From contig NZ_CP039121.1 in NCBI RefSeq assembly GCF_014131735.1, positions 682,001-746,000 of the forward strand: a DNA stretch of 64,000 bases, given 5' to 3'. The position numbers were made by a program, and so were the translations under genes. Positions 41,084 to 54,842 of this stretch are shown here, piece by piece (position 1 is the first letter of the stretch; each line of letters opens with the position of its first letter). A model generated the notes under the pieces. The model did no database searches. It saw only the letters and a list, made by a program, of their open reading frames with translations, and was not told the origin of the DNA. Source of the DNA: Lactiplantibacillus plantarum (lineage in GTDB: Bacteria > Bacillota > Bacilli > Lactobacillales > Lactobacillaceae).

Positions 41084-41237
41084 GTTGTGTCTTGAGGAAT
41101 ACCAAATACCAGTGGTAGGGGCTTTATAGTTAGACAAATATATTTAAGTTATGGCTGAAAGTTGTCTTTTCATTCAGCTTTAAGAGGTGTTTCAGGGTGA
41201 CGGTATAAGTATGCCATAGGTAATCGAGTGAAATACT

Positions 41238-41302
41238 ATACGAAAAACGTATGGTAGCATGTTTATTCGGTATTTTTCAGTGAATAAGAATCGGTTTATG
41301 AT
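41238..41302 (+). promoter_or_regulatory. LysR-type operator and promoter, copy A
   Basis: Dyad ATACG-AAAAA-CGTAT (41238-41252) has the T-N11-A form. GTAGCATG follows, then -35 TTTTCA (41274-41279), 17-base spacer and -10 TATGAT (41297-41302). It drives the NmrA-like gene at 41390. The 22 bases from the -10 onward are identical to copy C. Confidence 0.8.
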
Positions 41303-41389
41303 AGTGTCATTCAATCAGTTGGACAAGTAGGTTACATAAGCTCATTAGACTGATTAGAGAAATATTTAATAATCACGGAGGATTTATTT

Positions 41390-42028
41390 ATGAAAGTCTT
41401 GATTTTAGGCGCAGCAGGTCAAATTGGTCAAATGGTAACTGGTGATTTGTTGGCACAAACAGATGACAACTTAGTGCTATTCGGTCATAACGTCTCACAA
41501 CGGTTGGCGGAACTTGATTCAGCACGAGTGACGTTTGTTGATGGTGATTTTTTGGAATTTGACAAGGTACGACAAGCTGCCGAAGGTGTTGATGCGGTAT
41601 ATTTAAGTTTTGTTGCTAAGCCAGCTATTATTACGGGAGTCATTGACGCATTAGATAAGGCCGGGGTAAAGAGGTTTATCGTAGCTAATGTTCCTGATTT
41701 GTATCAAGAAGTTAGTGGGCCATTCCAAACATGGTATCGGCAAAATACTGGGCTGACATGGCAAACTGATCTCAAAAAGTCGGCCGACTTAGTGGAAAAT
41801 AGTGATTTGGATTACGTTATTTTACGTATTACTTGGCTGTACAACCAAGTAAATAATACTAAGATTCATGTTTCCGAGAAAGGTGAACCTTTAACGGAAG
41901 CCCAAGTCACACGTCAAGCGGTCGCTCAATTTGTTGTTGATCTTTTGACCGGCAAAGCTGATTATCATCAAGCCAACTTAGGATTGGGTGAACCTGATAC
42001 TCAATTCACTAAGCCGAGCTTTATGTAA
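41390..42028 (+). CDS. NmrA-like NAD(P)-binding protein (atypical SDR), paralogue 1
   Basis: 212 residues; CGGAGG upstream. The N-terminal dinucleotide motif is GAAGQIGQMV, and a conserved DLYQEVSGPFQTWY region follows. No YxxxK catalytic pair is evident, as in NmrA/NAD(P)H-binding atypical SDRs that act as redox sensors or reductases. Closely related along its full length to the protein at 49686 (shared GAAGQIGQMV, FVDGDFLEFDKV, LRITWLYNQ, TRQAVAQFVV). It has its own terminator and is controlled by operator copy A. Confidence 0.85.
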   Translation: MKVLILGAAGQIGQMVTGDLLAQTDDNLVLFGHNVSQRLAELDSARVTFVDGDFLEFDKVRQAAEGVDAVYLSFVAKPAIITGVIDALDKAGVKRFIVANVPDLYQEVSGPFQTWYRQNTGLTWQTDLKKSADLVENSDLDYVILRITWLYNQVNNTKIHVSEKGEPLTEAQVTRQAVAQFVVDLLTGKADYHQANLGLGEPDTQFTKPSFM

Positions 42029-42030
42029 GA

Positions 42031-42075
42031 GACAAACCTGTGAATGCTCAGAAAGCATTTGCAGGTTTGTCTTTT
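42031..42075 (+). terminator. Terminator after NmrA-like gene 1
   Basis: GACAAACCTG and CAGGTTTGTC form a perfect 10-bp stem with a nested TGAATGCT/AAGCATTTG stem, then TTTT. Confidence 0.88.
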
Positions 42076-42108
42076 ACCAAATTAGTACTTTAAAGTTAGG
42101 AGTTTGTA

Positions 42109-43443
42109 ATGAGTAAGAGCAAAGAAAAATTTGGCATTGTATTGCCAATTATTTTATTAAGTTATTTCATGATTTTATTAGATAATTCCATTATCTTTAC
42201 TAGTACGGTAAAGATTGCGCAAGAGCTACATTTAAATTCTCAGACGTTAGCGTGGGTAAGCAGTGCTTATACGTTAACATTTGGCGGCTTTCAGTTATTT
42301 GGTGGCCGTATCGGTGATGTTTTTGGTCGTAAGCGAGTGTTCTTGATTGGTTTGGTTTTATTCTCATTTGGTTCATTAATGGTGGGGCTATCGACCAACG
42401 CCGCCATGATTATCTCAATGAGGGCATTTCAAGGCATCGGCTCAGCCATTTTAGCACCAACTACTTTGGCACTGTTATTGGATAGCTATCAAGGCACAAT
42501 GCGCACGCGAGCAATTGCGGCATACGGTGCAACTGCTGGCTTGGGTGCTAGCTTTGGTCTGATTTTGGGTGGCATCATCACCAGCGTGTTCTCATGGCGG
42601 TACGGTTTTTTCTTGAATGTGCCAGTGGGAATTCTGATGTTTGTCTTGACGATATTCTTTGTACATGACAGTAAGACTGAAGGTTCACGACATCTAGACT
42701 TTGTGGGGACGCTGTTATCAGTTATCGGTTTATCCGCTTTGGTATACAGCATTGATGGTACCAGTCATCAAATTTTGGCCTTGATCGTTGCGATTGTTGC
42801 TTTGATTCTGTTTGTTTATGCGGAGAAGCGCATCAAGAATCCAATTATGCCATTGAAATTATTTATGGATAGAGAACGTAGCAGTGCTTACATCGCACGT
42901 TTCTTCTTCATCGGTGCGGCATTTGCCTACTTCTTTGTGACACCACAAGCTTTGCAGCGAGTGTATGGATTTACACCATTGATGGCTGGACTAGCCTTTT
43001 TACCAGCGACATTACCACAATTCTTCAGTGCAACCCAGGTTTCTAGAGTTTCAATGAAGATTGGCAATGATCGTTTGATTCTAGTTTCTATCATATCAGG
43101 AATTATTGGTGTCCTACTTTCAGCCGTGCTTGGTCTTAGTCATGGATACTGGCTAGCAGTTGGTATTCCAATGATTTTCTTTGGTGTTGGACAAGGGCTT
43201 GGATTAAGCCCGCTGACTATCGCGGGAGTTGCCAATACGGATGCTGATATTGCGGGCGCCGCTTCGGGTGTCGTCAATACAGTTCATCAATTTGGACAAT
43301 CGGTTGGAATGTCAATTGTTGTCGCCATGACTAGCGGCTTCAATAATCCAGCGACAAGCTATCACTATCAATTGTTGATTATTGCTGTGATTTTTATTTT
43401 GAGCTTCATTGCATCGCTTGGAATTCAGAGGAAAAAGCAATAA
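42109..43443 (+). CDS. MFS exporter of the DHA2 (14-helix) family
   Basis: 444 residues; TAGGAG upstream. LLDNSIIFTSTVKIA starts the first helix, GGRIGDVFGRKRVF is the loop 2-3 signature, and GLGASFGLILGGIITSVFSWRYGFFLNVP is motif C of drug antiporters. It lies between NmrA-like 1 and operator B; no promoter of its own is clear, so it may depend on read-through. Probable efflux of a toxic compound handled by the island enzymes. Confidence 0.88.
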   Translation: MSKSKEKFGIVLPIILLSYFMILLDNSIIFTSTVKIAQELHLNSQTLAWVSSAYTLTFGGFQLFGGRIGDVFGRKRVFLIGLVLFSFGSLMVGLSTNAAMIISMRAFQGIGSAILAPTTLALLLDSYQGTMRTRAIAAYGATAGLGASFGLILGGIITSVFSWRYGFFLNVPVGILMFVLTIFFVHDSKTEGSRHLDFVGTLLSVIGLSALVYSIDGTSHQILALIVAIVALILFVYAEKRIKNPIMPLKLFMDRERSSAYIARFFFIGAAFAYFFVTPQALQRVYGFTPLMAGLAFLPATLPQFFSATQVSRVSMKIGNDRLILVSIISGIIGVLLSAVLGLSHGYWLAVGIPMIFFGVGQGLGLSPLTIAGVANTDADIAGAASGVVNTVHQFGQSVGMSIVVAMTSGFNNPATSYHYQLLIIAVIFILSFIASLGIQRKKQ

Positions 43444-43454
43444 AAAGCATTACC

Positions 43455-43519
43455 ATACGTCTGACGTATGCTGGCATGCTTAGATAGTAATTTTCAGCGA
43501 GTTAAATCGACCTTATAAT
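43455..43519 (+). promoter_or_regulatory. LysR-type operator and promoter, copy B
   Basis: Dyad ATACG-TCTGA-CGTAT (43455-43469), then GCATGC, -35 TTTTCA (43491-43496), 17-base spacer and -10 TATAAT (43514-43519). It drives the reductase operon from 43554. Confidence 0.8.
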
Positions 43520-43538
43520 GAATTCATCAATTAAATAA

Positions 43539-44411
<873 letters not shown>

Positions 44412-44428
44412 TAAAGGGGTAGATAAAT

Positions 44429-45280
44429 ATGTCAGAAGCAACTTTTAAACTAAATAATGGTGTGAAGATTCCAGAAATGGGTATTGGTACTTTTCAAATG
44501 TCAGTTGATGATGCTGAGCAAGCTGTAGTTGACGCTTTGAAAGCTGGTTATCGCTTGGTGGACACTGCTAATGCTTATATGAACGAAACTGGTGTGGGGC
44601 GTGGTATTAAACGTTCCGGCGTTAGTCGTTCAGATGTATTCTTGAGTACGAAGCTTTGGCCATCTGTCTATACAGACAATAATGCGGTTGATGATACGCT
44701 GCAACGCTTAGGAACTGACTATGTTGATTTGATGTTTTTACACCAACCAGCTGGTGACTTTCTCACTGGATACCATCAACTTGAAAAAGCTTATAAAGAT
44801 GGCAAGGTCAAGGCAATTGGTATCTCAAATTTTCAAGGCGAAAAATTACAACAGTTATTGGATAATGTTGAAATTAAACCGCATGTGATTCAAGCCGAAG
44901 CACATCCATACTTTACTGAAGATGAAGTTAGAACAATTTTGAAACCGTTTGGGACAAGATTGATGGCTTGGTTCCCATTAGGTCATGGCGACAAGAGTCT
45001 GATTCAAGAACCCATTTTTGCTGAGCTGGGTCGGAAGTATCATAAAACGAGTGCGCAAGTTATTTTACGTTGGCACACACAGATGGGATTCATTGTGATT
45101 CCTGGATCAACTAATCCGGATCATATTCGTGATAATCATGACATCTTTGACTTTACACTGACTGATGAAGAAATGGCTCAAATTGCTGCTGTAAAGAAGA
45201 ATATTCGGTATTACACACCGTCAGCTGAAAATGAAGAAAAATATGCCACGATGGCGTTAGACTTTAGTACTGAAAAGTAG
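44429..45280 (+). CDS. Aldo/keto reductase, paralogue 2
   Basis: 283 residues; AAAGGGG upstream; 17 bases after the previous gene. Tetrad in LVDTANAYMNE, LSTKLWP and FLHQPAGDF; NADPH site VIPGSTNPDHI. Its C-terminus RYYTPSAENEEKYATMAL is found, degraded, at 59245-59349. It belongs to a different branch from the other island AKRs and has the 2,5-diketo-D-gluconate reductase-like layout. Confidence 0.88.
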   Translation: MSEATFKLNNGVKIPEMGIGTFQMSVDDAEQAVVDALKAGYRLVDTANAYMNETGVGRGIKRSGVSRSDVFLSTKLWPSVYTDNNAVDDTLQRLGTDYVDLMFLHQPAGDFLTGYHQLEKAYKDGKVKAIGISNFQGEKLQQLLDNVEIKPHVIQAEAHPYFTEDEVRTILKPFGTRLMAWFPLGHGDKSLIQEPIFAELGRKYHKTSAQVILRWHTQMGFIVIPGSTNPDHIRDNHDIFDFTLTDEEMAQIAAVKKNIRYYTPSAENEEKYATMALDFSTEK

Positions 45281-45298
45281 ACTAGGAGTGTTTTATTA

Positions 45299-46042
45299 AT
45301 GAGTGAATCGAAAGTAATCGTTATTACCGGTGCGTCAAGTGGTATTGGGGAAGCGACAGCTAAATTAGTGGCTAAAGATGGTGCAAAGGTTATCTTGGGA
45401 GCTCGGCGCGAGAATAAGTTAAAGAAAATTGCTGATGGGATTGAGAAGTTAGGTGGCGAAGCTGCTTATCAAGCAACCGATGTTACTGATGATAATCAGG
45501 TTGAAGCACTCGCTAAATTAGCGATAGATAAATTTGGTCGGATTGACGTTTGGCTGAATAATGCTGGTATTATGCCTCAATCGATCCTTTCTGAAAAGAA
45601 AATCAATGATTGGAACAATATGATTGATATCAATATCAAGGGAACGCTTTACGGTATTGGTGCAGCGATTCCGTATATGGATAAACAAAAGGCAGGACAC
45701 ATTATCAACGTTTCTTCTGTTGCTGGACACACTGCTCATTCAGGTAGTGCCGTCTATTCAGCAACCAAATATGCAGTCTGCGCTATCAGTGAATCGCTCC
45801 GTCAAGAAATGGTAGAAGCCAAGAATAATGTTCGGGTAACGGTTATCTCACCGGGTGCTATCAACACTGACTTGCTTTCTTCTGTAACTGATCCTGAGGT
45901 TAAAGCTGGTATGGAGAAGTTTTATGAATCGTTTGGTATTTCAGTTGATCGAGTAGCGTTAACAATTAAAGAAGCTATTGATATGCCCGCCGATGCTGCT
46001 TGGAATGAAGTTATTATTCGACCAACAAACCAAATGGGCTAG
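45299..46042 (+). CDS. Short-chain dehydrogenase/reductase (classical SDR)
   Basis: 247 residues; AGGAGTG upstream. Cofactor motif TGASSGIGEA, NNAGIM, the catalytic Ser in INVSSVAGH and YSATK as the YxxxK pair. It is the YdfG/Sdr family type acting on 3-hydroxy acids or carbonyls with NADP. Third gene of the operon driven by operator B; a terminator follows 76 bases later. Confidence 0.9.
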   Translation: MSESKVIVITGASSGIGEATAKLVAKDGAKVILGARRENKLKKIADGIEKLGGEAAYQATDVTDDNQVEALAKLAIDKFGRIDVWLNNAGIMPQSILSEKKINDWNNMIDINIKGTLYGIGAAIPYMDKQKAGHIINVSSVAGHTAHSGSAVYSATKYAVCAISESLRQEMVEAKNNVRVTVISPGAINTDLLSSVTDPEVKAGMEKFYESFGISVDRVALTIKEAIDMPADAAWNEVIIRPTNQMG

Positions 46043-46428
46043 TCCAAAAAGACTGGAAAATTTGAGCGTACTGCTTAGGTAGCTAACTCCTAGTTACCTA
46101 GTTTGTTAAGTGATAAATAGCCCCTGAACCAATCGTTTTTGGACTGGTTTCAGGGGCTGTTTATATTGATTGTCGGATTTGTGACAACTTACTTTTCGGT
46201 TGCCAACTGTTATTTTGCTGCAAGAAAATAAAACTTTAGGCCGCTTTAACATTTTGGGGGCCATTCGAACACGATTCAGATTGAGCGTGGCTATGTGGAA
46301 ATCGCTGGTGGTGTCAAGTTGAGAATTTAAGAGTTAGCCATTTGGCAGTTAGTTCGAATGAGACTTTTCTCTTGCCTTGGAGTTCACACCAGGGTTTAAC
46401 ATGATGTTTGTTAAAAATCAAGAAAGGT
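46043..46428. other. Region after the reductase operon, with gene debris
   Basis: Contains the terminator at 46119-46162. From about 46260 to 46330 a frame reads TIQIERGYVEIAGGVKLRI before a stop, without a start or ribosome site, so it may be the remains of another gene. No complete gene. Confidence 0.35.
46119..46162 (+). terminator. Terminator after the reductase operon
   Basis: AGCCCCTGAACCA and TGGTTTCAGGGGCT pair with one bulge, then GTTTAT. The T run is weak. Confidence 0.75.
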
Positions 46429-46497
46429 ATGATTAAGTTGAAAAGATGGGGAATTGGTATTGTCGTTGCAATCGTGATTATTGTGAGCGTGATTTGA
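46429..46497 (+). pseudogene. Truncated 5' end of a membrane or exported protein gene
   Basis: ATG behind AGAAAGG; 22 codons reading MIKLKRWGIGIVVAIVIIV then a stop. This is a typical N-terminal signal anchor with nothing following it in frame. From 46446 the overlapping frame becomes a MerR C-terminus. Probably the surviving end of a gene joined to MerR debris. Confidence 0.5.
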
Positions 46498-46790
46498 ATT
46501 GGATCTACTATGTCCGGTCATTACGCCAGGCCGGAATGTTGATTGAATCATTGATTGAGTATATGAAACTACTTCATCAACCGGATACTTCACCAGAAGT
46601 ACGACGAGACTTACTGATCGATCAACGTGATGAATTAGTGCAACAGTTGAGAGAGACACGACAAACAATTGCATATTTGTCCTATAAAATCGATCATTTC
46701 CAAGAACATATTTTAAGCAGTGAGGCAGCACAACTATTTCCACAACAAAGCAACAAAATTATTGATGATAGTCACAACGCTGAGGACTGA
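46446..46790 (+). pseudogene. MerR-family regulator, C-terminal fragment without the DNA-binding domain
   Basis: About 100 residues match the dimer helix and tail of MerR regulators: DLNWIYYVRSLRQAGMLIE, YMKLLHQP, RRDLLIDQRDELVQQL and YLSYKIDHFQEHI. The whole N-terminal helix-turn-helix, about 50 residues, is missing. Upstream of the fragment is the start of an unrelated membrane ORF, so a deletion has joined the two. MerR regulators are common next to AKR genes in lactobacilli. The fragment should be inactive. Confidence 0.8.
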
Positions 46791-46871
46791 TCTATTGCAG
46801 TACCATAATGATTTAAGATAATCCAATATATCCTGAATGGTAGGAAATTTTTGGATGAGAGGAGTGATTGA

Positions 46872-47342
46872 ATGAAAAATTCAAGTAACGCATTAGTGTT
46901 GTATTTTTCACTCACGGATAATACTAAACGGGCTGCTAATACGGTTGCTGAGATAACGGGCGCTGATATTGAGATACTTCGTTTAGAAGAACCTTATTCA
47001 GACGATTATACTGAAGCTGCTAAACGTGCGGAGCAGGAAAAAGACCAGCAAATAATACCAGAATTAAGACCACTTAACCATCAATTGAATGATTATGAGA
47101 CGATTTATTTAGGCTTTCCGACTTGGTGGTATCAGCCACCAATGGTGATTCATACTTTTTTTGCTGAATATCAATTTTCTGGACAAACGATTGTACCGTT
47201 CACTACCAGTGCTAGTAGTTCAATTACGGCAAGTGCCAAAGTATTAGCTTCATTGACCGAACGAAAAAACGTTGATTTAAAAGCAGGGTTTACTGCTAAT
47301 CAAACTAACGTGATTAAACAGTATTTTAAAGACCTGTTATAA
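46872..47342 (+). CDS. Flavodoxin
   Basis: 156 residues; AGAGGAGTG upstream. FMN phosphate loop LYFSLTDNTKRAA, then YETIYLGFPTWWYQPPM and TSASSSITAS at the isoalloxazine site. Long-chain flavodoxin-like or NAD(P)H-reductase-type fold, as seen beside AKR genes. Acts as a one- or two-electron carrier. Adjacent to the MerR fragment and a truncated membrane ORF. Confidence 0.87.
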   Translation: MKNSSNALVLYFSLTDNTKRAANTVAEITGADIEILRLEEPYSDDYTEAAKRAEQEKDQQIIPELRPLNHQLNDYETIYLGFPTWWYQPPMVIHTFFAEYQFSGQTIVPFTTSASSSITASAKVLASLTERKNVDLKAGFTANQTNVIKQYFKDLL

Positions 47343-47380
47343 GTTGAGTATTAATGGATAAGCTTTGATTTAAGGGGATG

Positions 47381-47569
47381 ATGAAAATAAAAAAGGTCGG
47401 GCTAGGATTAATTGGTATTGGTAGTTTGATGTTAATTGGCATCTGGTTAGTACTCAAAGCTGAGCCGAAGAACGGGGCATGGGCAAATCAACAAACCGTT
47501 GTCGCCGTTACTCATGACAACATTAGGGATAGTGGCAATAGTGTTGCTGAATGTGTAACTTCTAATTGA
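47381..47569 (+). pseudogene. Short membrane-anchored ORF, probably a truncated gene
   Basis: 62 codons from ATG 47381 (AAGGGG upstream; ATG 47378 is possible). A single signal anchor (KKVGLGLIGIGSLMLIGIWL) followed by about 35 residues of polar sequence that ends abruptly. In size and position it looks like the N-terminal remnant of an exported protein. Function unknown; it could still be a small functional protein. Confidence 0.45.
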
Positions 47570-47667
47570 TGTTTATGAGGTTAGTGTGTGTCGTAGCAAA
47601 CATTAGCGGATTGCTAGGTTGCGTCGCTGGTATGACATGCGTATCGGTAGGATTGAATAATTAATTT

Positions 47668-47718
47668 ACAGAAACCTAGCGTGATGGTTGAATGTTTACC
47701 ATCACGCTAGGTTTCTGT
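47668..47718. terminator. Long hairpin terminator after the LysR gene
   Basis: Stem of 21 perfect base pairs (47668-47688 with 47698-47718), 9-base loop. It starts 6 bases past the LysR stop and could also stop transcription from the left. The minus-strand T run is weak. Confidence 0.75.
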
Positions 47719-47723
47719 AATAG

Positions 47724-48614
47724 TTACTTACTTTGTAGTGCCTTGGGCCACTGTTGTTGGATTTCGCTAAGCATGGGAGCTAGGTGTTTCTTTTGGGCAA
47801 TCAAGTAGTTAGCATATACGACCATTTTGGCGCTGTCATCACTGATTGGAACAGTTACCCGGTCCTTATCGTTTTTAACCTGCTCATTAAAGAACGGGTC
47901 GCTTTGCGATAGGTTAGTCGTGAAGAATGGAAAACGTGAGTATTTAGTGATTTCAGCAAAAGCGTCACGGTCATCTTGATACATAAACTTCGCCTCTGGA
48001 ATATTATCTTGAATAATTGCACTCCATGGGCCAATGGCACGCATCACAATGAAACTCATACCTTGCAGTTCCTCAAAGGTTACGGTTGGTTGATTGGCTA
48101 AGTAAGTAAATTGATCCAAGTTAACTTGTAGTCGTTCTTCACCAATGTATTGAGATTCAATCTCATCCGTAAAAATCTCCTGATCAGAAAAAATCACGGT
48201 GTATTGGTTATTATTGAGTGCGTCAGTAATTTGCTGATTGGAAATGGCATTAGTGTCAATTTGGATATGCCTGCTAAGCGTGGGCTGTAGCTCACCAAGG
48301 AGGATTAATGGACCTGGAACAGTCGCTGCAATCGCAGTTAAGTGTTGACCTTGATCATAGTTCTGCACCTTCGTAATCATGGCCGTGTTGAGCTTCAGTA
48401 GTTTTGTCGCTTCTTCAGCTGCAAGAACGCCTGTGGGGGTAAGCTGAATGTGATTGGCCTGGCGCTCAAATAACTGAACCCCAAACTCGTCTTCCAATTT
48501 TTGCATACCACGAGTGACGGAAGGCTGAGTCACATTCAACTGTGTTGCAGTTTTTGTTAGTGTCCCGGTTTGCGCGAAGACGCTAAGTTCTTCTAATAAA
48601 TAGCTTTCAATCAT
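47724..48614 (-). CDS. LysR-family regulator, likely controller of the four-operator regulon
   Basis: 296 residues from ATG 48614, with AGGAGTG 8 bases upstream; a GTG three codons earlier overlaps it. N-terminal helix-turn-helix TLTKTATQLNVTQPSVTRGMQKLEDEFGVQLFER. The C-terminal domain is a periplasmic-binding-like effector domain. It is divergent from the reductase at 48729, and operator copy C lies in the 114-base gap. The dyads fit the T-N11-A rule for LysR proteins. The shared operators elsewhere in the island suggest it acts on all four; that is inference. Confidence 0.88.
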   Translation of the reverse strand: MIESYLLEELSVFAQTGTLTKTATQLNVTQPSVTRGMQKLEDEFGVQLFERQANHIQLTPTGVLAAEEATKLLKLNTAMITKVQNYDQGQHLTAIAATVPGPLILLGELQPTLSRHIQIDTNAISNQQITDALNNNQYTVIFSDQEIFTDEIESQYIGEERLQVNLDQFTYLANQPTVTFEELQGMSFIVMRAIGPWSAIIQDNIPEAKFMYQDDRDAFAEITKYSRFPFFTTNLSQSDPFFNEQVKNDKDRVTVPISDDSAKMVVYANYLIAQKKHLAPMLSEIQQQWPKALQSK

Positions 48615-48631
48615 ATAATTCACTCCTAAGC

Positions 48632-48696
48632 ATACATTAAACGTATGGTAGCATGTTTATCTAGTAATTTTCAAACAATCCATCTCGCCTTATGAT
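48632..48696 (+). promoter_or_regulatory. LysR-type operator and promoter, copy C (divergent with LysR gene)
   Basis: Dyad ATACA-TTAAA-CGTAT (48632-48646), then GTAGCATG, -35 TTTTCA (48668-48673), 17-base spacer and -10 TATGAT (48691-48696). It lies 18 bases from the LysR start, so it could serve for autoregulation too. Confidence 0.82.
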
Positions 48697-48728
48697 AGTG
48701 TCATTCAATCAGAAAGGTGTGAAACAAA

Positions 48729-49613
48729 ATGGTCATGACGCAAACGGTCCGACTAAGTAGTGGGATTGAAATGCCGCAAGTTGGTTTCGGCGTTTTCCAA
48801 ATTGTAGATGAACAACAATGTGAACGTGCGGTAACGCAGGCGTTACATGCGGGTTATCTTTCAATTGACACCGCGACGGCTTATCAGAATGAAGTTGCAG
48901 TCGGGCGTGCGATAAAAAATAGTGGGATTCGACGTGAATCACTCTTTGTTACTTCTAAACTGTGGGTGGCGGATGCGTCATACGAACGTGCTAAAGCAGG
49001 CATTCAGGCTTCGCTTCAGCACTTGGGACTAGATTACTTGGACTTATATTTATTACACCAACCTTATGGTGACGTTGTGGGTGCTTGGCGAGCGTTGGAA
49101 GAAGCTAATCAAGCAGGATTAATTCGGGCTATCGGGGTATCGAACTTTTCTGCTGATCAACTTAAAAATCTGGAATTAACGACGACAATCAAACCGGTGG
49201 TCAACCAGATTGAAGTCAATCCATGGTATCAACAACAAGAAGCCATTGATTTTGCACAGTCTGAAGGTATTCAAGTTGAAACGTGGGCACCATTTGCGGA
49301 AGGTAAACAAGCGATTTTTGAAAATTCAGTATTAGTCGCCATTGGTCAACGATATGGCAAGACTGCTAGTCAGGTTATTTTACGTTGGTTATTACAACGT
49401 GATATTGTGGTAATTTCCAAGACGATTCATGTGGAACGGATGGTTGCGAATCTAAATGTTTGTGATTTTGAACTTACTGACGAAGATATGCAACGGATTA
49501 CCCAACTTGATCAACATCGTAGTCAGTTCTTTGATCATCATGATCCGTTAACAATTGATCAGATTTTTGGCACCAGTATTCAGAAGAGTCGCATGCCATC
49601 AGGGCTTGATTAG
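48729..49613 (+). CDS. Aldo/keto reductase, AKR5-like, paralogue 3
   Basis: 294 residues; AGAAAGGTG upstream. Tetrad: Asp/Tyr in SIDTATAYQNE, Lys in VTSKLW, His in YLLHQPYGD. It is clearly the sister of the 43554 protein (shared [11 protein letters not shown] and VNPWYQQ). One change from it is ISKTIHVERM where the sister has [10 protein letters not shown]. First gene of an operon with an NmrA-like protein and a glucose-uptake protein, under operator C and probably the divergent LysR. Confidence 0.9.
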   Translation: MVMTQTVRLSSGIEMPQVGFGVFQIVDEQQCERAVTQALHAGYLSIDTATAYQNEVAVGRAIKNSGIRRESLFVTSKLWVADASYERAKAGIQASLQHLGLDYLDLYLLHQPYGDVVGAWRALEEANQAGLIRAIGVSNFSADQLKNLELTTTIKPVVNQIEVNPWYQQQEAIDFAQSEGIQVETWAPFAEGKQAIFENSVLVAIGQRYGKTASQVILRWLLQRDIVVISKTIHVERMVANLNVCDFELTDEDMQRITQLDQHRSQFFDHHDPLTIDQIFGTSIQKSRMPSGLD

Positions 49614-49685
49614 TATCGTTTAGCAGGATAGTTGTTAAGAAACAAATTGATAAAGTTTATTTTGAATTGAACGGAGGAATTATTA

Positions 49686-50324
49686 ATGAAAGTGATGATT
49701 TTAGGTGCAGCGGGCCAAATTGGTCAAATGGTCACACAGCAGCTGTTGGCGCAAACCGATGATCAGTTGGTATTGTATGGACATAATGTATCACAACGAT
49801 TGACAGCGTTTGATTCGATACGAGTGACATTTGTGGACGGAGATTTTCTTGAATTTGATAAGGTTCAAACCGCATTAAACGGAGTAGACGCGGTCTATCT
49901 GAGCTTTGTTGCTGGCCCGGATATTATTGCCGGTTTGATTAAGGTTTTGGATGCGACGGGGGTTAAACGACTCATTGTTGCCAGTATTCCAGATCTTTAT
50001 CAAGAAGTCAGTGGCCCGTTTCAGCAATGGTATCGTGAACATACCGGTATCGTTTGGCAGTCAGACCGTAAACAGGCAGCTGATTTGATTGAAGCAAGTG
50101 ACCTCGACTATGTGTTGTTACGGATTACGTGGCTGTATAACCAAACTGGTAATACGGCAGTTGCGGTAACTAAGAAGGGTGAACCATTTACTTCGGCCCA
50201 AGTGACGCGGCAAGCTGTGGCACAATTCGTCGTTAATTTGTTGGCTGGTAAAGGTGACTATCATCGTGAAAGCCTAGGCTTAGGAGAACCGCAGACTGAA
50301 TTTTCAAAACCAAGTTTTTATTAA
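49686..50324 (+). CDS. NmrA-like NAD(P)-binding protein, paralogue 2
   Basis: 212 residues, the same length as the 41390 protein; CGGAGG upstream. Cofactor motif GAAGQIGQMV, core DLYQEVSGPFQQWY, LRITWLYNQTGNTA. The two proteins share most residues, so an operator-plus-NmrA unit was duplicated; here it follows the reductase instead of standing alone. 72 bases separate it from the reductase gene. Confidence 0.85.
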   Translation: MKVMILGAAGQIGQMVTQQLLAQTDDQLVLYGHNVSQRLTAFDSIRVTFVDGDFLEFDKVQTALNGVDAVYLSFVAGPDIIAGLIKVLDATGVKRLIVASIPDLYQEVSGPFQQWYREHTGIVWQSDRKQAADLIEASDLDYVLLRITWLYNQTGNTAVAVTKKGEPFTSAQVTRQAVAQFVVNLLAGKGDYHRESLGLGEPQTEFSKPSFY

Positions 50325-50391
50325 TTAATTGGTGAACATTGCTTGCAATCAGTGCGCACCACAAAATTTTAAAGGAATGAAGGAAAGCATA

Positions 50392-51246
50392 ATGAATATT
50401 GTTTGGATGTTATTACCTGCGATTGCGTGGGGCGTGTTACCACTAATTGTGAGCCAATTAGGCGGGCGACCAGTTAATCAAATTTTTGGTACGGCCGTTG
50501 GAACATTAATTGCTAGTTTAGTCGTTCAGCTAATCGTTCACCCAGCCATTAACGTGATTTCATTTATTATGGCCATGATTGCTGGTGCCTTTTGGATTAT
50601 TGGTCAGTTGGGACAATATACGGGATACGCCAATGTAGGTGTTTCTAAGACGATGCCGATTTCAACTGGATTACAGTTAGTTGGGACATCGTTAGTTGGT
50701 GTTTTCTTGTTTGGTGAATGGTCAACGACAATTGCAAAACTTGTGGGCGGCTTAGGGGTCTTGTTACTTGTGATTGGTGTCATCATGACTTCAATTCAAG
50801 ATCGCCAAGAAGTGACTGGCAGTAATCAGCGACGAACGATTGTGATGTTGATTGTGACGACCATTGGATTTATTGTCTTTAATGCGATTCCAAAGGCGTT
50901 ATCTGCGTCTGGTATTGCGATCTTTTTACCAGAATCAGTGGGAATGATGGTAGCCGTTATTGTTTATATGTTAGTAAGTGGTCAAGGTCGAATTGTGGCA
51001 GAACGGGCTAGTTGGTTGAACATTATTGGTGGGTTAGTTTTTTCAGTAGCTTCGTTGACATACATTGTTTCAGTTAGCCAGAATGGGGTCAATACGGCCT
51101 TTGTGGTTTCGCAGTTATCCGTTGTGTTGTCAACATTAGGTGGCATGGTATTTTTACACGAGCGTAAATCCAAACGTGAATTAGTTTTAACTTTGAGTGG
51201 CTTAGTCTTGATTGTGATCGGTGCAGTCGTCACTACTTTAATTTAA
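50392..51246 (+). CDS. GlcU/RbsU-type sugar uptake protein (GRP family)
   Basis: 284 residues from ATG 50392 (GAAGGAAAG upstream); the frame is open to 50329 without a ribosome site. Ten membrane segments. The LPAIAWGVLPLIVSQLGGRP start and GAFWIIGQLGQYTGYANVGVS motif are those of the glucose/ribose porter family. In Bacillus glcU is paired with a glucose dehydrogenase gene, and a glucose dehydrogenase gene also follows here, at 51757 under operator D. Likely uptake of glucose or a related sugar by proton symport. Confidence 0.87.
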   Translation: MNIVWMLLPAIAWGVLPLIVSQLGGRPVNQIFGTAVGTLIASLVVQLIVHPAINVISFIMAMIAGAFWIIGQLGQYTGYANVGVSKTMPISTGLQLVGTSLVGVFLFGEWSTTIAKLVGGLGVLLLVIGVIMTSIQDRQEVTGSNQRRTIVMLIVTTIGFIVFNAIPKALSASGIAIFLPESVGMMVAVIVYMLVSGQGRIVAERASWLNIIGGLVFSVASLTYIVSVSQNGVNTAFVVSQLSVVLSTLGGMVFLHERKSKRELVLTLSGLVLIVIGAVVTTLI

Positions 51247-51386
51247 ACTGAAACGTCATATGATCAACTTGCGACGGAATAATTGAGCTGGTTTCTTTAC
51301 AAAAGACGAACTAATGAAAAATTAGCCATAAAATGAGCGGCGCTAATGCAATTTTAGTCCCGTTAGTATTATGATGTCTGATCAGT

Positions 51387-51434
51387 AATCAGCGGTGTTC
51401 AAGAATACCTTTATTCTTAAGTACCGCTGATTTT
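51387..51434 (+). terminator. Terminator after the GlcU-like gene
   Basis: AATCAGCGGT and ACCGCTGATT form a 10-bp stem with nested AAGAAT/ATTCTT, then TTTT. It lies 140 bases past the stop. Confidence 0.8.
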
Positions 51435-51617
51435 GGTTAGTCGTGCTAGTGGCATTGATTGACTTCAAGTTAGTATGTTGAATGAGCAAGTTATACTTTT
51501 AGGAATGATTGTGGAGTTGTACCTGTGTTTAGAAACGACTAATCATCAGTGATATATCACTGGTGTAGCAATGTTGGCGTGTGTCACTGACCGAGCTAAA
51601 GGTCACACAGTTATGCC

Positions 51618-51682
51618 ATACGTTAAACGAATGCTAGCATGTTTATCAAGTAATTTTCAAAGTGTCTTTTTAGCATTAATAT
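51618..51682 (+). promoter_or_regulatory. LysR-type operator and promoter, copy D
   Basis: Dyad ATACG-TTAAA-CGAAT (51618-51632), then CTAGCATG, -35 TTTTCA (51654-51659), 17-base spacer and -10 TAATAT (51677-51682). It drives the glucose dehydrogenase gene. One base of the dyad is off compared with the perfect form. Confidence 0.78.
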
Positions 51683-51741: not shown

Positions 51742-52542
<801 letters not shown>

Positions 52543-52616: not shown

Positions 52617-53306
52617 ATGGCGCTTAAAGAACGTATGGACGTTAAGTTAGCATCAGCAGTAATGGACAATCAAATCAGTGATCAGCCAGTAGTGGCTTAT
52701 CAGTTAGGGAAAACGGCCAGTGTCTGGCAACATGGTGCGGGAACTAAATCTGATGGAATGGATACGAATGCTAGCAATCAGCCTACTAGACGATTAACAA
52801 AGCAGGCTCGAAGCATCATTATTTATTTTTCACGGTCCGGAAGCACTGAATTGCTTGCTAGCCAAATTGCTAAAGAGACTCAGGCTGATATTTTGGAGAT
52901 TGTGGTCAAATCACCTTATGACCGTAATTATCAGCAAACGTTAGCGCGTGCTAATTCGGAGCGCGAAACTGCTAATTATCCGGAATTGAATATGCAGGTT
53001 CCTGATTTGAGCCAGTATCAAACTATCTATCTGGGTTATCCTGTATGGGCGATGACTTTATCGCATCCGATGACTGCTTTTTTAATCCAGTATGGTAGTC
53101 AACTTCAGCATAAGCAGATTGCACCGTTTATGACAGAGGGTGGTTATGGTCAGGGGGATAGCGTGGAACGTCTCAAAGGCATGTTAAAAGTCGACGGTTC
53201 GAGTACTAACCGATATGAGACAGCTCTAGTCATTGACGGTAATAAAGTTGATCGTGAAGTTAAACAGATCAATCAATGGATACACCGTGTTACGCAACGT
53301 GACTGA
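52617..53306 (+). CDS. Flavodoxin with an N-terminal extension
   Basis: 229 residues; TTGGAGG 9 bases upstream of the ATG. The flavodoxin domain begins near residue 67 (IIIYFSRSGSTELLA phosphate loop; YQTIYLGYPVWAMTLSH; TEGGYGQGDS). Residues 1-65 are a polar extension with no clear motif and a repeated DVKLASAV/DNQISDQP type composition; no signal peptide is evident. The strong ribosome site shows it is meant to be translated. It is 74 bases after the glucose dehydrogenase. Confidence 0.85.
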   Translation: MALKERMDVKLASAVMDNQISDQPVVAYQLGKTASVWQHGAGTKSDGMDTNASNQPTRRLTKQARSIIIYFSRSGSTELLASQIAKETQADILEIVVKSPYDRNYQQTLARANSERETANYPELNMQVPDLSQYQTIYLGYPVWAMTLSHPMTAFLIQYGSQLQHKQIAPFMTEGGYGQGDSVERLKGMLKVDGSSTNRYETALVIDGNKVDREVKQINQWIHRVTQRD

Positions 53307-53399
53307 CAGTCATTGGCGTGACTTGGTAAGTCACTTTTAGTTAGCTTAATGTAATGCTGAATTATAATTAAGTTAATTAATAAATTGGAGGATCTTTTA

Positions 53400-53978
53400 A
53401 TGAATAATGAACGACTGACCGCATTTGAAGATGCGATTCTAGCTATTATTATGACAATTTTGGTTCTTGACTTGAGTAAACCAAATCCCGTTAGTTGGAC
53501 CGGATTATGGGCATTGCATGCGAGCTTTTTCGCCTATGCGCTGTCGTTTTTCTGGATTGGATTAATGTGGATGTCACATCATAATAGTTGGCAAGCAGTT
53601 CGGACAATTAATATGACAACCGTGCTCTTAACGCTAGTGTTGTTGTTTTTCGCATCGTTATTCCCATACACAACGAGCCTGGTTGCGAACAGTTTTGATA
53701 ATGCGACTGCCCAAGCGCTTTATGGGATTATTATTATTGCGATTTCGTTATTGAACGTTGGTCTATCGCTGAATCTAGGTCGTCTCAATCCACGCGCCAA
53801 ATTTGGATTGTTATATAAGACGCCAACGTGGGTCGTATTGCTCGATCTAGGAATTAAATTGATTGGGCTAATTTTAGCAATCACTATTTATCCACAAGCG
53901 ATGATCTATTCCATTTTTATTGCGGGTTTGGTGCTGAGCATTAGCATGACGACTAATCGCCAAGTTAAATTAAACTAA
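53400..53978 (+). CDS. TMEM175-like (DUF1211) membrane protein
   Basis: 192 residues from ATG 53400 (GGAGG upstream). First helix RLTAFEDAILAIIMTILVLDL is the TMEM175/DUF1211 signature, where the usual motif has FSD and this has FED. About five to six membrane segments. Bacterial members are low-selectivity potassium channels. Follows the flavodoxin gene by 93 bases and the next reductase starts 12 bases later. Confidence 0.84.
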   Translation: MNNERLTAFEDAILAIIMTILVLDLSKPNPVSWTGLWALHASFFAYALSFFWIGLMWMSHHNSWQAVRTINMTTVLLTLVLLFFASLFPYTTSLVANSFDNATAQALYGIIIIAISLLNVGLSLNLGRLNPRAKFGLLYKTPTWVVLLDLGIKLIGLILAITIYPQAMIYSIFIAGLVLSISMTTNRQVKLN

Positions 53979-53990
53979 GGGGCGCTATTA

Positions 53991-54842
53991 ATGAAAACAA
54001 TTAAGTTAAACAATGGTGTTGAAGTACCGATATTAGGATTTGGGACATTCCAAATTACTGATCCTGAAGAAGCTGAAGATGCGGTGCGTGATGCGATTCA
54101 AGCCGGTTATCGGCATATTGATACGGCACAAAGTTATGAAAATGAAGGGGCCGTGGGTCGTGGTATTGCAACCTCGGGTGTTGACCGCAAGGAATTGTTT
54201 GTGACGACTAAGATTTGGGTTGAAAATACTAGTTATAAAGGTGTCATGAGCTCGTTTCAACGTTCACTTGATCGGTTAGGCTTAAAGTACGTGGATTTAT
54301 TACTGTTGCATCAACCATACAACGATACCTTTGGGGCTTGGCGTGCATTGGAAGAATTACAAAAACAGGGTAAAGTTCGTGCAATCGGTATTTCTAACTT
54401 TAGTGTTGAACAGGCGGTGAACTTGGCTGAATTTAATGACGTTACACCACAAATTAATCAAATCGAAATCAATCCGTTCCAACAACAGACGAATAATATT
54501 CAAGCTTTACGTGATGAAGGCATTTCCTTGGAAGCTTGGGCCCCATTCGCAGAAGGTAAGAATGATATTTTCAACAATCCGGTATTAACTAAGATTGGGG
54601 ACAAATATGGTAAATCCGTTGCGCAAGTTATTCTACGCTGGCTGATTGAACAAGATATTGTTGTCTTAGCTAAGTCGGTTAAACCAGAACGGATGCGTCA
54701 AAATTTGGACGTCTTTGATTTTGAATTAACCGATGACGACAAAGCACAAATTGCGACTCTTAATGATGGCGAAAGCCAGTTCTTCTCACATGCTGATCCT
54801 AAAATGATCAAGTGGATGGCAGGTCGCCGTTTGGAAGTGTAA
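53991..54842 (+). CDS. Aldo/keto reductase, AKR5-like, paralogue 4
   Basis: 283 residues; AAGGGG upstream; 12 bases after the TMEM175-like gene. Tetrad: Asp/Tyr in HIDTAQSYENE, Lys in VTTKIWV, His in LLHQPYNDT; NADPH site VLAKSVKPERM. Same family as 43554 and 48729 but more distant. It ends with a terminator 50 bases on. Confidence 0.88.
   Translation: MKTIKLNNGVEVPILGFGTFQITDPEEAEDAVRDAIQAGYRHIDTAQSYENEGAVGRGIATSGVDRKELFVTTKIWVENTSYKGVMSSFQRSLDRLGLKYVDLLLLHQPYNDTFGAWRALEELQKQGKVRAIGISNFSVEQAVNLAEFNDVTPQINQIEINPFQQQTNNIQALRDEGISLEAWAPFAEGKNDIFNNPVLTKIGDKYGKSVAQVILRWLIEQDIVVLAKSVKPERMRQNLDVFDFELTDDDKAQIATLNDGESQFFSHADPKMIKWMAGRRLEV

Follow-up and report, generated by a model that had tools for sequence, protein, structure and literature searches.

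Candidate operators of a LysR-type regulator control a small oxidoreductase regulon in a 14-kb cluster of Lactiplantibacillus plantarum: a comparative prediction

Introduction

LysR-type transcriptional regulators (LTTRs) of the CbnR, BenM and CatR kind are encoded divergently from a target gene, recognize a T-N11-A dyad near −65 with the second half of the site at −35, and repress their own synthesis. In the activation layout of LTTRs, the dyad lies near −64 and the second half at a weak −35. Here, we analyzed a 64,000-nucleotide stretch of Lactiplantibacillus plantarum (NZ_CP039121.1, positions 682,001 to 746,000; "the window", numbered from its first letter), in which an earlier note on this DNA had described four promoters, copies A to D, as defining a redox regulon of one LysR-type regulator encoded at 47724-48614 (LysR 47724). 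Like the CbnR, BenM and CatR systems, this locus combines a regulator with a helix-turn-helix and a probable effector domain, a related fold, a dyad and a divergent target. Unlike them, its putative targets are lactobacillus genes for aldo-keto reductases (AKRs), short-chain dehydrogenases/reductases (SDRs), NmrA-like proteins, glucose 1-dehydrogenase (GDH), a GlcU transporter and an MFS exporter, and further operator copies lie away from lysR.

A possible functional parallel is offered by E. coli YqhC, which activates yqhD and the DkgA-like AKR gene dkgA upon aldehydes, but YqhC is an AraC-family and not a LysR-type protein, and its system has no GDH/GlcU arm. LpLttR of L. plantarum is a LysR-type regulator of the same genus with a small regulon, a TAC-n7 type box and binding to its own promoter. 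Its gene, LP_RS00230, lies elsewhere and is linked to cla-dh/cla-dc, its motif derives mostly from sites found in other bacteria, and its listed targets differ by description, Tables 1 and 2 of that report (11 and 70 genes) containing no aldo-keto reductase, NmrA, glucose dehydrogenase or GlcU (PMC9019972). A regulon reconstruction for lactic acid bacteria, likewise a comparative inference in the same group, gives three LysR regulons for cysteine/methionine plus MleR, and the terms "aldo" and "oxidoreductase" are absent from its main text (PMC3616900). Passages of an L. plantarum butanol transcriptome report yielded nothing usable (PMC7911632). The earlier note knew of no description of the regulon, and none was found in a literature search covering titles and abstract openings among the matches listed, with most subscription papers outside it. 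LTTRs with a divergent target are well known as a kind, but neither the present regulon nor its operator or distribution appears to have been described. For many lactobacillus AKR, SDR, NmrA, GDH and GlcU genes annotated by family alone, the analysis supplies a regulator and an operator together with a list of targets.

Results and Discussion

Copies A to D share a dyad and a fixed promoter spacing

Judged by sequence comparison, copies A to D are probably (probability about 0.8) operators of one LysR-type activator, the product of 47724-48614, which would control a small regulon within one 14-kb cluster (Table 1). The operator was analyzed as a 46-column block. The four dyads start exactly where the earlier note had placed them, and copy C does lie between lysR and its divergent AKR gene. 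In the shared block, 28 of 46 columns are invariant and pairs of copies agree at 32 to 41 of 46 positions, so that "highly similar" is a fairer wording than the earlier "near-identical". All four carry T-N11-A, and a GCATG element, described before as about 5 bases on, begins 4 bases past the dyad. The fuller dyad ATACG-N5-CGTAT was present in A and B, but not in C (left half ATACA) or D (right half CGAAT). The gap between TTTTCA and the −10 is exactly 17 bases in every copy, and A and C have 22 identical bases from the −10 onward, both as described before.

Table 1. Operators, regulator and putative target genes in the window.
Feature	Position	Strand	Basis
Operator copy A, 46-column block	41236..41281	+	Dyad 41238-41252; TTTTCA 41274-41279; −10 TATGAT 41297-41302
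NmrA-like protein, behind copy A	41390..42028	+	Family match
DHA2-family MFS exporter, after NmrA of A	42109..43443	+	Family match; homologues elsewhere directly behind site
Operator copy B, 46-column block	43453..43498	+	Dyad 43455-43469; TTTTCA 43491-43496; −10 TATAAT 43514-43519
Operon B: AKR 43554-44411, AKR 44429-45280, SDR 45299-46042	43554..46042	+	Family matches
LysR-type regulator (type I), 296 aa	47724..48614	−	PF00126; confident structure model; full-length LTTR folds nearest
Operator copy C, lysR/AKR intergenic	48630..48675	+	Dyad 48632-48646; TTTTCA 48668-48673; −10 TATGAT 48691-48696; predicted transcription start A at 48703
Predicted lysR promoter within copy C	48645..48674	−	TTGAAA 48674-48669; N18 ending TGC; TACCAT 48650-48645
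AKR (DkgA-like), first gene of operon C	48729..49613	+	PF00248; DkgA model best, below its cut-off
NmrA-like NAD(P)H-binding protein, operon C	49686..50324	+	Family match
GlcU/RhaT-type sugar transporter, operon C	50392..51246	+	PF06800; TIGR00776 below its cut-off
Operator copy D, 46-column block	51616..51661	+	Dyad 51618-51632; TTTTCA 51654-51659; −10 TAATAT 51677-51682; sites upstream of gdh orthologues in other genomes
Glucose 1-dehydrogenase, operon D	51757..52542	+	NF006493 above cut-off; GDH structures such as 1gee
Flavodoxin-domain protein, probably operon D	52617..53306	+	PF12682; gdh-flavodoxin order recurs in other genomes
TMEM175-like protein and AKR, possible end of operon D (uncertain)	53400..54842	+	Behind terminator-like hairpin

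The operator is rare in the genome

With leave-one-out matrices, the left-out copy scored 42.7-55.6 and any other window position at most 13.7. A matrix built from 58 lysR-adjacent sites of other genomes scored copies A to D at 37.1-65.8, vs −14.4 for the next window position and no more than 4.1 for 20 Markov windows. A search of the 64-kb window down to a score of 8 showed no further operator. In the whole 3.25-Mb genome, the core pattern with 0 mismatches matched solely the four copies, and allowing up to 3 mismatches gave 31 matches vs 16 for the reversed control. Exactly five sites (E 3e-14 to 1.4e-9) were found by a sequence-model search of the genome, the 46-column model having been trained on 36 sites with all five of these among them. 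The next match had E = 0.07, and no sign of a wider regulon in this genome appeared below that value. The fifth site, C1:799650, lies between a paralogous LysR gene and another AKR pair. The genome-wide scan that the earlier note had proposed thus returned the four copies plus one site adjoining a LysR paralogue, so that the motif is neither common across the genome nor unrelated to LysR, which it tracks. A 1-mismatch match (L005) and a 2-mismatch match (L006) were rejected as operators; both are intragenic, in coding sequence, and lack the GTAATTTTCA block.

The site tracks a LysR subfamily across genomes

The survey comprised 301 genomes from the same family, among which related genomes are not independent. 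LysR was scored as present at E ≤ 1e-40, with at most 7 LysR candidates scored per genome, so that other LysRs may be missed, and the site was scored as present at E ≤ 0.001. LysR was found in 78 genomes and the site in 80 (both in 74, LysR alone in 4, site alone in 6, neither in 217); the site therefore occurs in 74 of 78 LysR genomes vs 6 of 223 scored LysR-negative (Fisher p = 9e-58). One of the six scored as site-only, G181, actually has a LysR (49%) at its site. Counted by gene, a divergent site accompanies 77 of 91 LysR genes, at 12-41 bp in 74 cases and at 145-510 bp in three. The link largely ends with the LysR subfamily, since the site was present for 76 of 81 homologues of at least 41% identity vs 1 of 10 at 40% or below. 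Circularity is countered by a matrix built from A, B and D only, none of which adjoins lysR. When 29 loci centred on LysR in other genomes were scored with it, the top match fell at the lysR flank in 28, the exception being L056 (score −2.2, no site). A strict pattern search of the 301 genomes gave 62 matches in 51 genomes and none for the reversed pattern, and the block is present in 17 of 40 sampled genera. Comparison between genomes thus establishes the operator and its link to this LysR family.

The likeness of A to D could also be a remnant of promoter-plus-gene duplication, with no working regulon behind it: the AKRs of B and C, and the NmrA proteins of A and C, are similar (paralogous), A and C share the 22 bases from the −10, and copying probably did spread the site. 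As the whole story, duplication was rejected on the spread over genera, where the block stands upstream of unrelated genes (GDH, GlcU, MFS and zinc-dependent alcohol dehydrogenase, Zn-ADH), and on its tracking of LysR; in addition, the 17-base spacing is constant though the spacer letters vary. We consider this explanation very unlikely.

The site has an activator-like layout and a predicted lysR promoter on its other strand

Within the loci analyzed, 105 distinct sites were compared, 60 adjoining lysR and 45 elsewhere (A, B and D among them); L090 (score 25.8), counted with the 45, merely echoes a reverse-strand dyad. T-N11-A occurs in 105/105, partly by construction. A TAnnnT exactly 17 bases past the TTTTCA position was found in 57/60 lysR-adjacent and 41/45 other sites, and at 16 or at 18 bases in 0/60 and 1/45 each. 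CAT stands exactly 5 bases past the −10 in 46/105 sites, vs no more than 4 sites for each of 11 alternative offsets, suggesting that its A is the likely transcription start. Both the TAnnnT spacing and the CAT lie outside the columns used for site finding. Counted from the predicted start A, the dyad centre falls at about −64, the usual position of an LTTR recognition site.

A LysR tetramer would place two subunits on the T-N11-A dyad and the other two over GCATG...GTAATTTT, reaching the weak −35. With a small inducer bound, LysR would touch RNA polymerase at one set position and raise target transcription; such a fixed contact is proposed as the reason for the constant 17-base spacer. A repressor that is released from the target promoters by its inducer would agree with the extension of the block into the −35, and some LTTRs do repress. 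An exact dyad-to-−10 spacing is needless for a repressor, however, and the arrangement seen here is that of LTTR activation, with the dyad near −64, the other half of the site reaching a weak −35, and a −10 close to consensus, so that repression of the targets appears improbable.

Read in reverse, the block contains a predicted lysR promoter, TTGAAA-N15-TGC-TACCAT, in which the GCATG element doubles as an extended −10. The full reverse promoter is present in 51/60 lysR-adjacent sites vs 11/45 others (p = 4e-10), and the terminal CAA carries 2.05, 1.72 and 1.60 bits beside lysR vs 0.78, 0.87 and 0.51 elsewhere; GTAATTTT is conserved in lysR-adjacent and other sites alike. TTTTCA is thus more than the −35 of the targets as which the earlier note had assigned it: conservation of its CAA end is largely confined to sites with lysR opposite, indicating that part of the presumed target −35 is kept for lysR. 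The conservation pattern thus marks the block as two-sided, with the CAA end as the predicted lysR −35 and the GCATG element as its extended −10. Since the predicted lysR start lies within the dyad, a bound regulator would block it, and LysR bound at copy C may in this way limit its own synthesis.

The regulator lacks cysteines

The N-terminal HTH_1 domain of LysR 47724 matched PF00126 at 60.4 bits (cut-off 26.6), and its substrate-binding domain matched PF03466 at 25.8 bits, slightly below the cut-off of 28. The structure model had a pLDDT (predicted local distance difference test) of 90.6. In a fold search with this model, all 50 matches listed were LTTRs of many kinds (best E 4.5e-19; whole-chain TM-scores, by query length, 0.40-0.64), and none of these 50 gave a hint of the inducer. 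The LTTR hallmarks of a regulator divergent from a target, with the operator between them, and of T-N11-A in the operator are both present at copy C.

LysR 47724 contains no cysteine. Among 115 full-length homologues (among 120 listed of 358), 87 have none, 24 have one and 4 have two. Oxidative stress sensed by thiols of the regulator itself, as in OxyR, would agree with the oxidoreductase targets, and OxyR structures are among the nearest folds listed, as expected for any LTTR; LysR 47724 nevertheless lacks the OxyR-type redox-active cysteine pair, and because of the missing cysteines thiol redox sensing was rejected as very unlikely; a cysteine-free protein would depend on a different sensor for any response to peroxide. 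The likelier signal is the binding of a small molecule, because cysteines are absent from LysR and from most of the homologues. As a statement on the signal, the "redox" in the earlier name of the regulon is a guess, which LysR 47724 and the many cysteine-free homologues do not favor.

A paralogous LysR has a diverged operator variant

The paralogous LysR, encoded at C1:798753, is 51% identical to LysR 47724 and shares 90% identity with P0094 of L. plantarum, and its site at C1:799650 is divergent from an AKR gene. The module as a whole, LysR with AKR-AKR, occupies C1:798732-801501 of the same genome (L048 6732-9501), with its own operator variant at L048:7650. The helix-turn-helix segments of the two paralogues are nearly alike (TQPSVTRGMQKLE vs TQPTITRGMQKLE). 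In the protein tree, the window LysR falls into a supported clade with Latilactobacillus proteins, a Levilactobacillus protein and some Lactiplantibacillus proteins, and the clade of the paralogue is separate. LysRs of the window kind were designated type I and the other LysRs of the genus, which form more than one tree group, type II.

The paralogue might instead control A, B and D, in part or in full, or both LysRs might share the sites. This rival has to be weighed, since the genome encodes this second LysR with a similar site of the same layout and a nearly identical helix-turn-helix, so that cross-talk must be considered. Genus genomes with no type I LysR (G211, G258 and G306) moreover have four sites away from lysR, two leading to an MFS gene, one to an AKR fragment and one lying at a contig end, indicating that other LysRs also have small regulons and that cross-talk is possible. 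Matrices for the two types, trained on the few sites next to lysR in other genomes (4 sites, 3 distinct, for type I and 11 for type II), a small training set, point the other way: the log2 preference for type I was +18.6 for A, +7.6 for B, +16.4 for C and +9.5 for D, vs −20.9, that is type II, for the site of the paralogue. In G292, which has one LysR of each kind, the same matrices typed the gdh site as type I (+16.9) and the MFS site as type II (−11.3). By these scores, A to D resemble the operator variant of LysR 47724 more than that of the paralogue, and comparison between genomes supports paralogue-specific variants; control by the paralogue is unlikely, though less so than the other alternatives. 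With two paralogous LysRs and two operator variants present in the same cell, operator specificity is open to a direct test.

All 21 genus genomes have a LysR and the site, and four have a type I LysR (G000, G071, G193 and G227). A GDH orthologue of at least 90% was found only in G000, G193 and G227 among the 21, each time behind a site, so that its carriers are three of the four type I genomes. G071 has a GDH of the 79% kind, and no AKR, GlcU or GDH gene was found beside its retained lysR and site (L186, G071:C1:1877000-1890000, site 4760). Its relative G227 (L151) has AKR, GlcU and GDH genes at the corresponding place, and the G071 locus looks like a loss that left the operator without targets.

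Control of A to D by LysR 47724 as one activator, as the earlier note had argued, is thus backed by the co-occurrence of LysR and site, the A/B/D-only matrix, the recurring target kinds and the constant 17-base spacing. Several observations weigh against it. The type I matrix comprises only 4 sites (3 distinct), and its scores for B and D are below those for A and C. The 105 sites were chosen with a matrix that included the window-genome copies, and the conservation over 46 columns is partly by construction. The −35 is relaxed in sites away from lysR, TTTTCA being present in 27/45. At the thresholds used, 14 of 91 LysR genes have no site, including the close ones of G010 (56%), G140 (46%) and G004 (44%), and five site-bearing genomes (G008, G037, G192, G210 and G257) have no LysR.

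Target genes suggest carbonyl reduction and glucose oxidation

The gene order behind the copies is as the earlier note had given it, with NmrA behind A, AKR-AKR-SDR behind B, AKR-NmrA-GlcU behind C and a GDH-led operon behind D. The MFS exporter gene, which follows NmrA behind A, is a likely regulon member because homologues elsewhere have a site directly upstream. A terminator-like hairpin follows operon B (46075-46101), and another at 53318-53334 leaves the end of operon D uncertain. The nearest solved structures to the operon C AKR are 4mhb, 1vp5 and YvgN. Sites away from lysR in other genomes lead to AKR, DHA2 MFS, GDH, GlcU, Zn-ADH, flavodoxin and NmrA genes, the target kind of a site being that of the first gene of known kind, not always the first gene, and SDR genes occur further downstream in some site-led operons. 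The target kinds thus recur between genomes. In an olive fermentation by L. pentosus, gdh and glcU are reported in one expression cluster, and "LysR" is absent from the main text of that report (PMC10556671).

The putative targets are carbonyl/quinone-type reductases (AKR, SDR, NmrA-like and flavodoxin proteins) and an exporter, and the regulon is probably a reductive detoxification programme. Because of these targets, we propose a reactive carbonyl or quinone-like inducer. The glucose importer together with glucose dehydrogenase could supply NAD(P)H. More tentatively, and with the odds rather against it, a detoxification regulon can be envisaged that is widespread in lactobacilli and provides its own cofactor, in which one LysR that binds a reactive carbonyl or quinone-like compound would induce the reductases, the exporter and, for NAD(P)H, both GlcU for free-glucose import and GDH for direct glucose oxidation. 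The window species would then have two LysRs of this kind working side by side, their operator codes having diverged. Such a cofactor role, if true, would explain direct glucose oxidation beside carbonyl reductases in a fermentative bacterium.

Other observations at this and related loci

Within the oxidoreductase cluster of the window, 53400-53978 encodes a TMEM175-like potassium channel family protein, homologues of which were also seen near lysR in G193 and G292 (L152 and L159). Short or partial open frames, perhaps gene remnants, lie at 46190-46870 and 47343-47600 in the interval between operon B and lysR. The lysR copy of G227 (L150, 4765-5626) looks broken, being split into two frames, and that of G045 (L183, 6662-9243) also looks broken, with two open reading frames of unknown kind between its parts, perhaps an inserted element. 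In G171 (C1:750000-795000, L174-L176), several LysR homologues of 38-46% identity to the window LysR are encoded, and weak sites stand upstream of NmrA, AKR, flavodoxin, MFS and Zn-ADH genes; this cluster is a diverged, enlarged version of the regulon.

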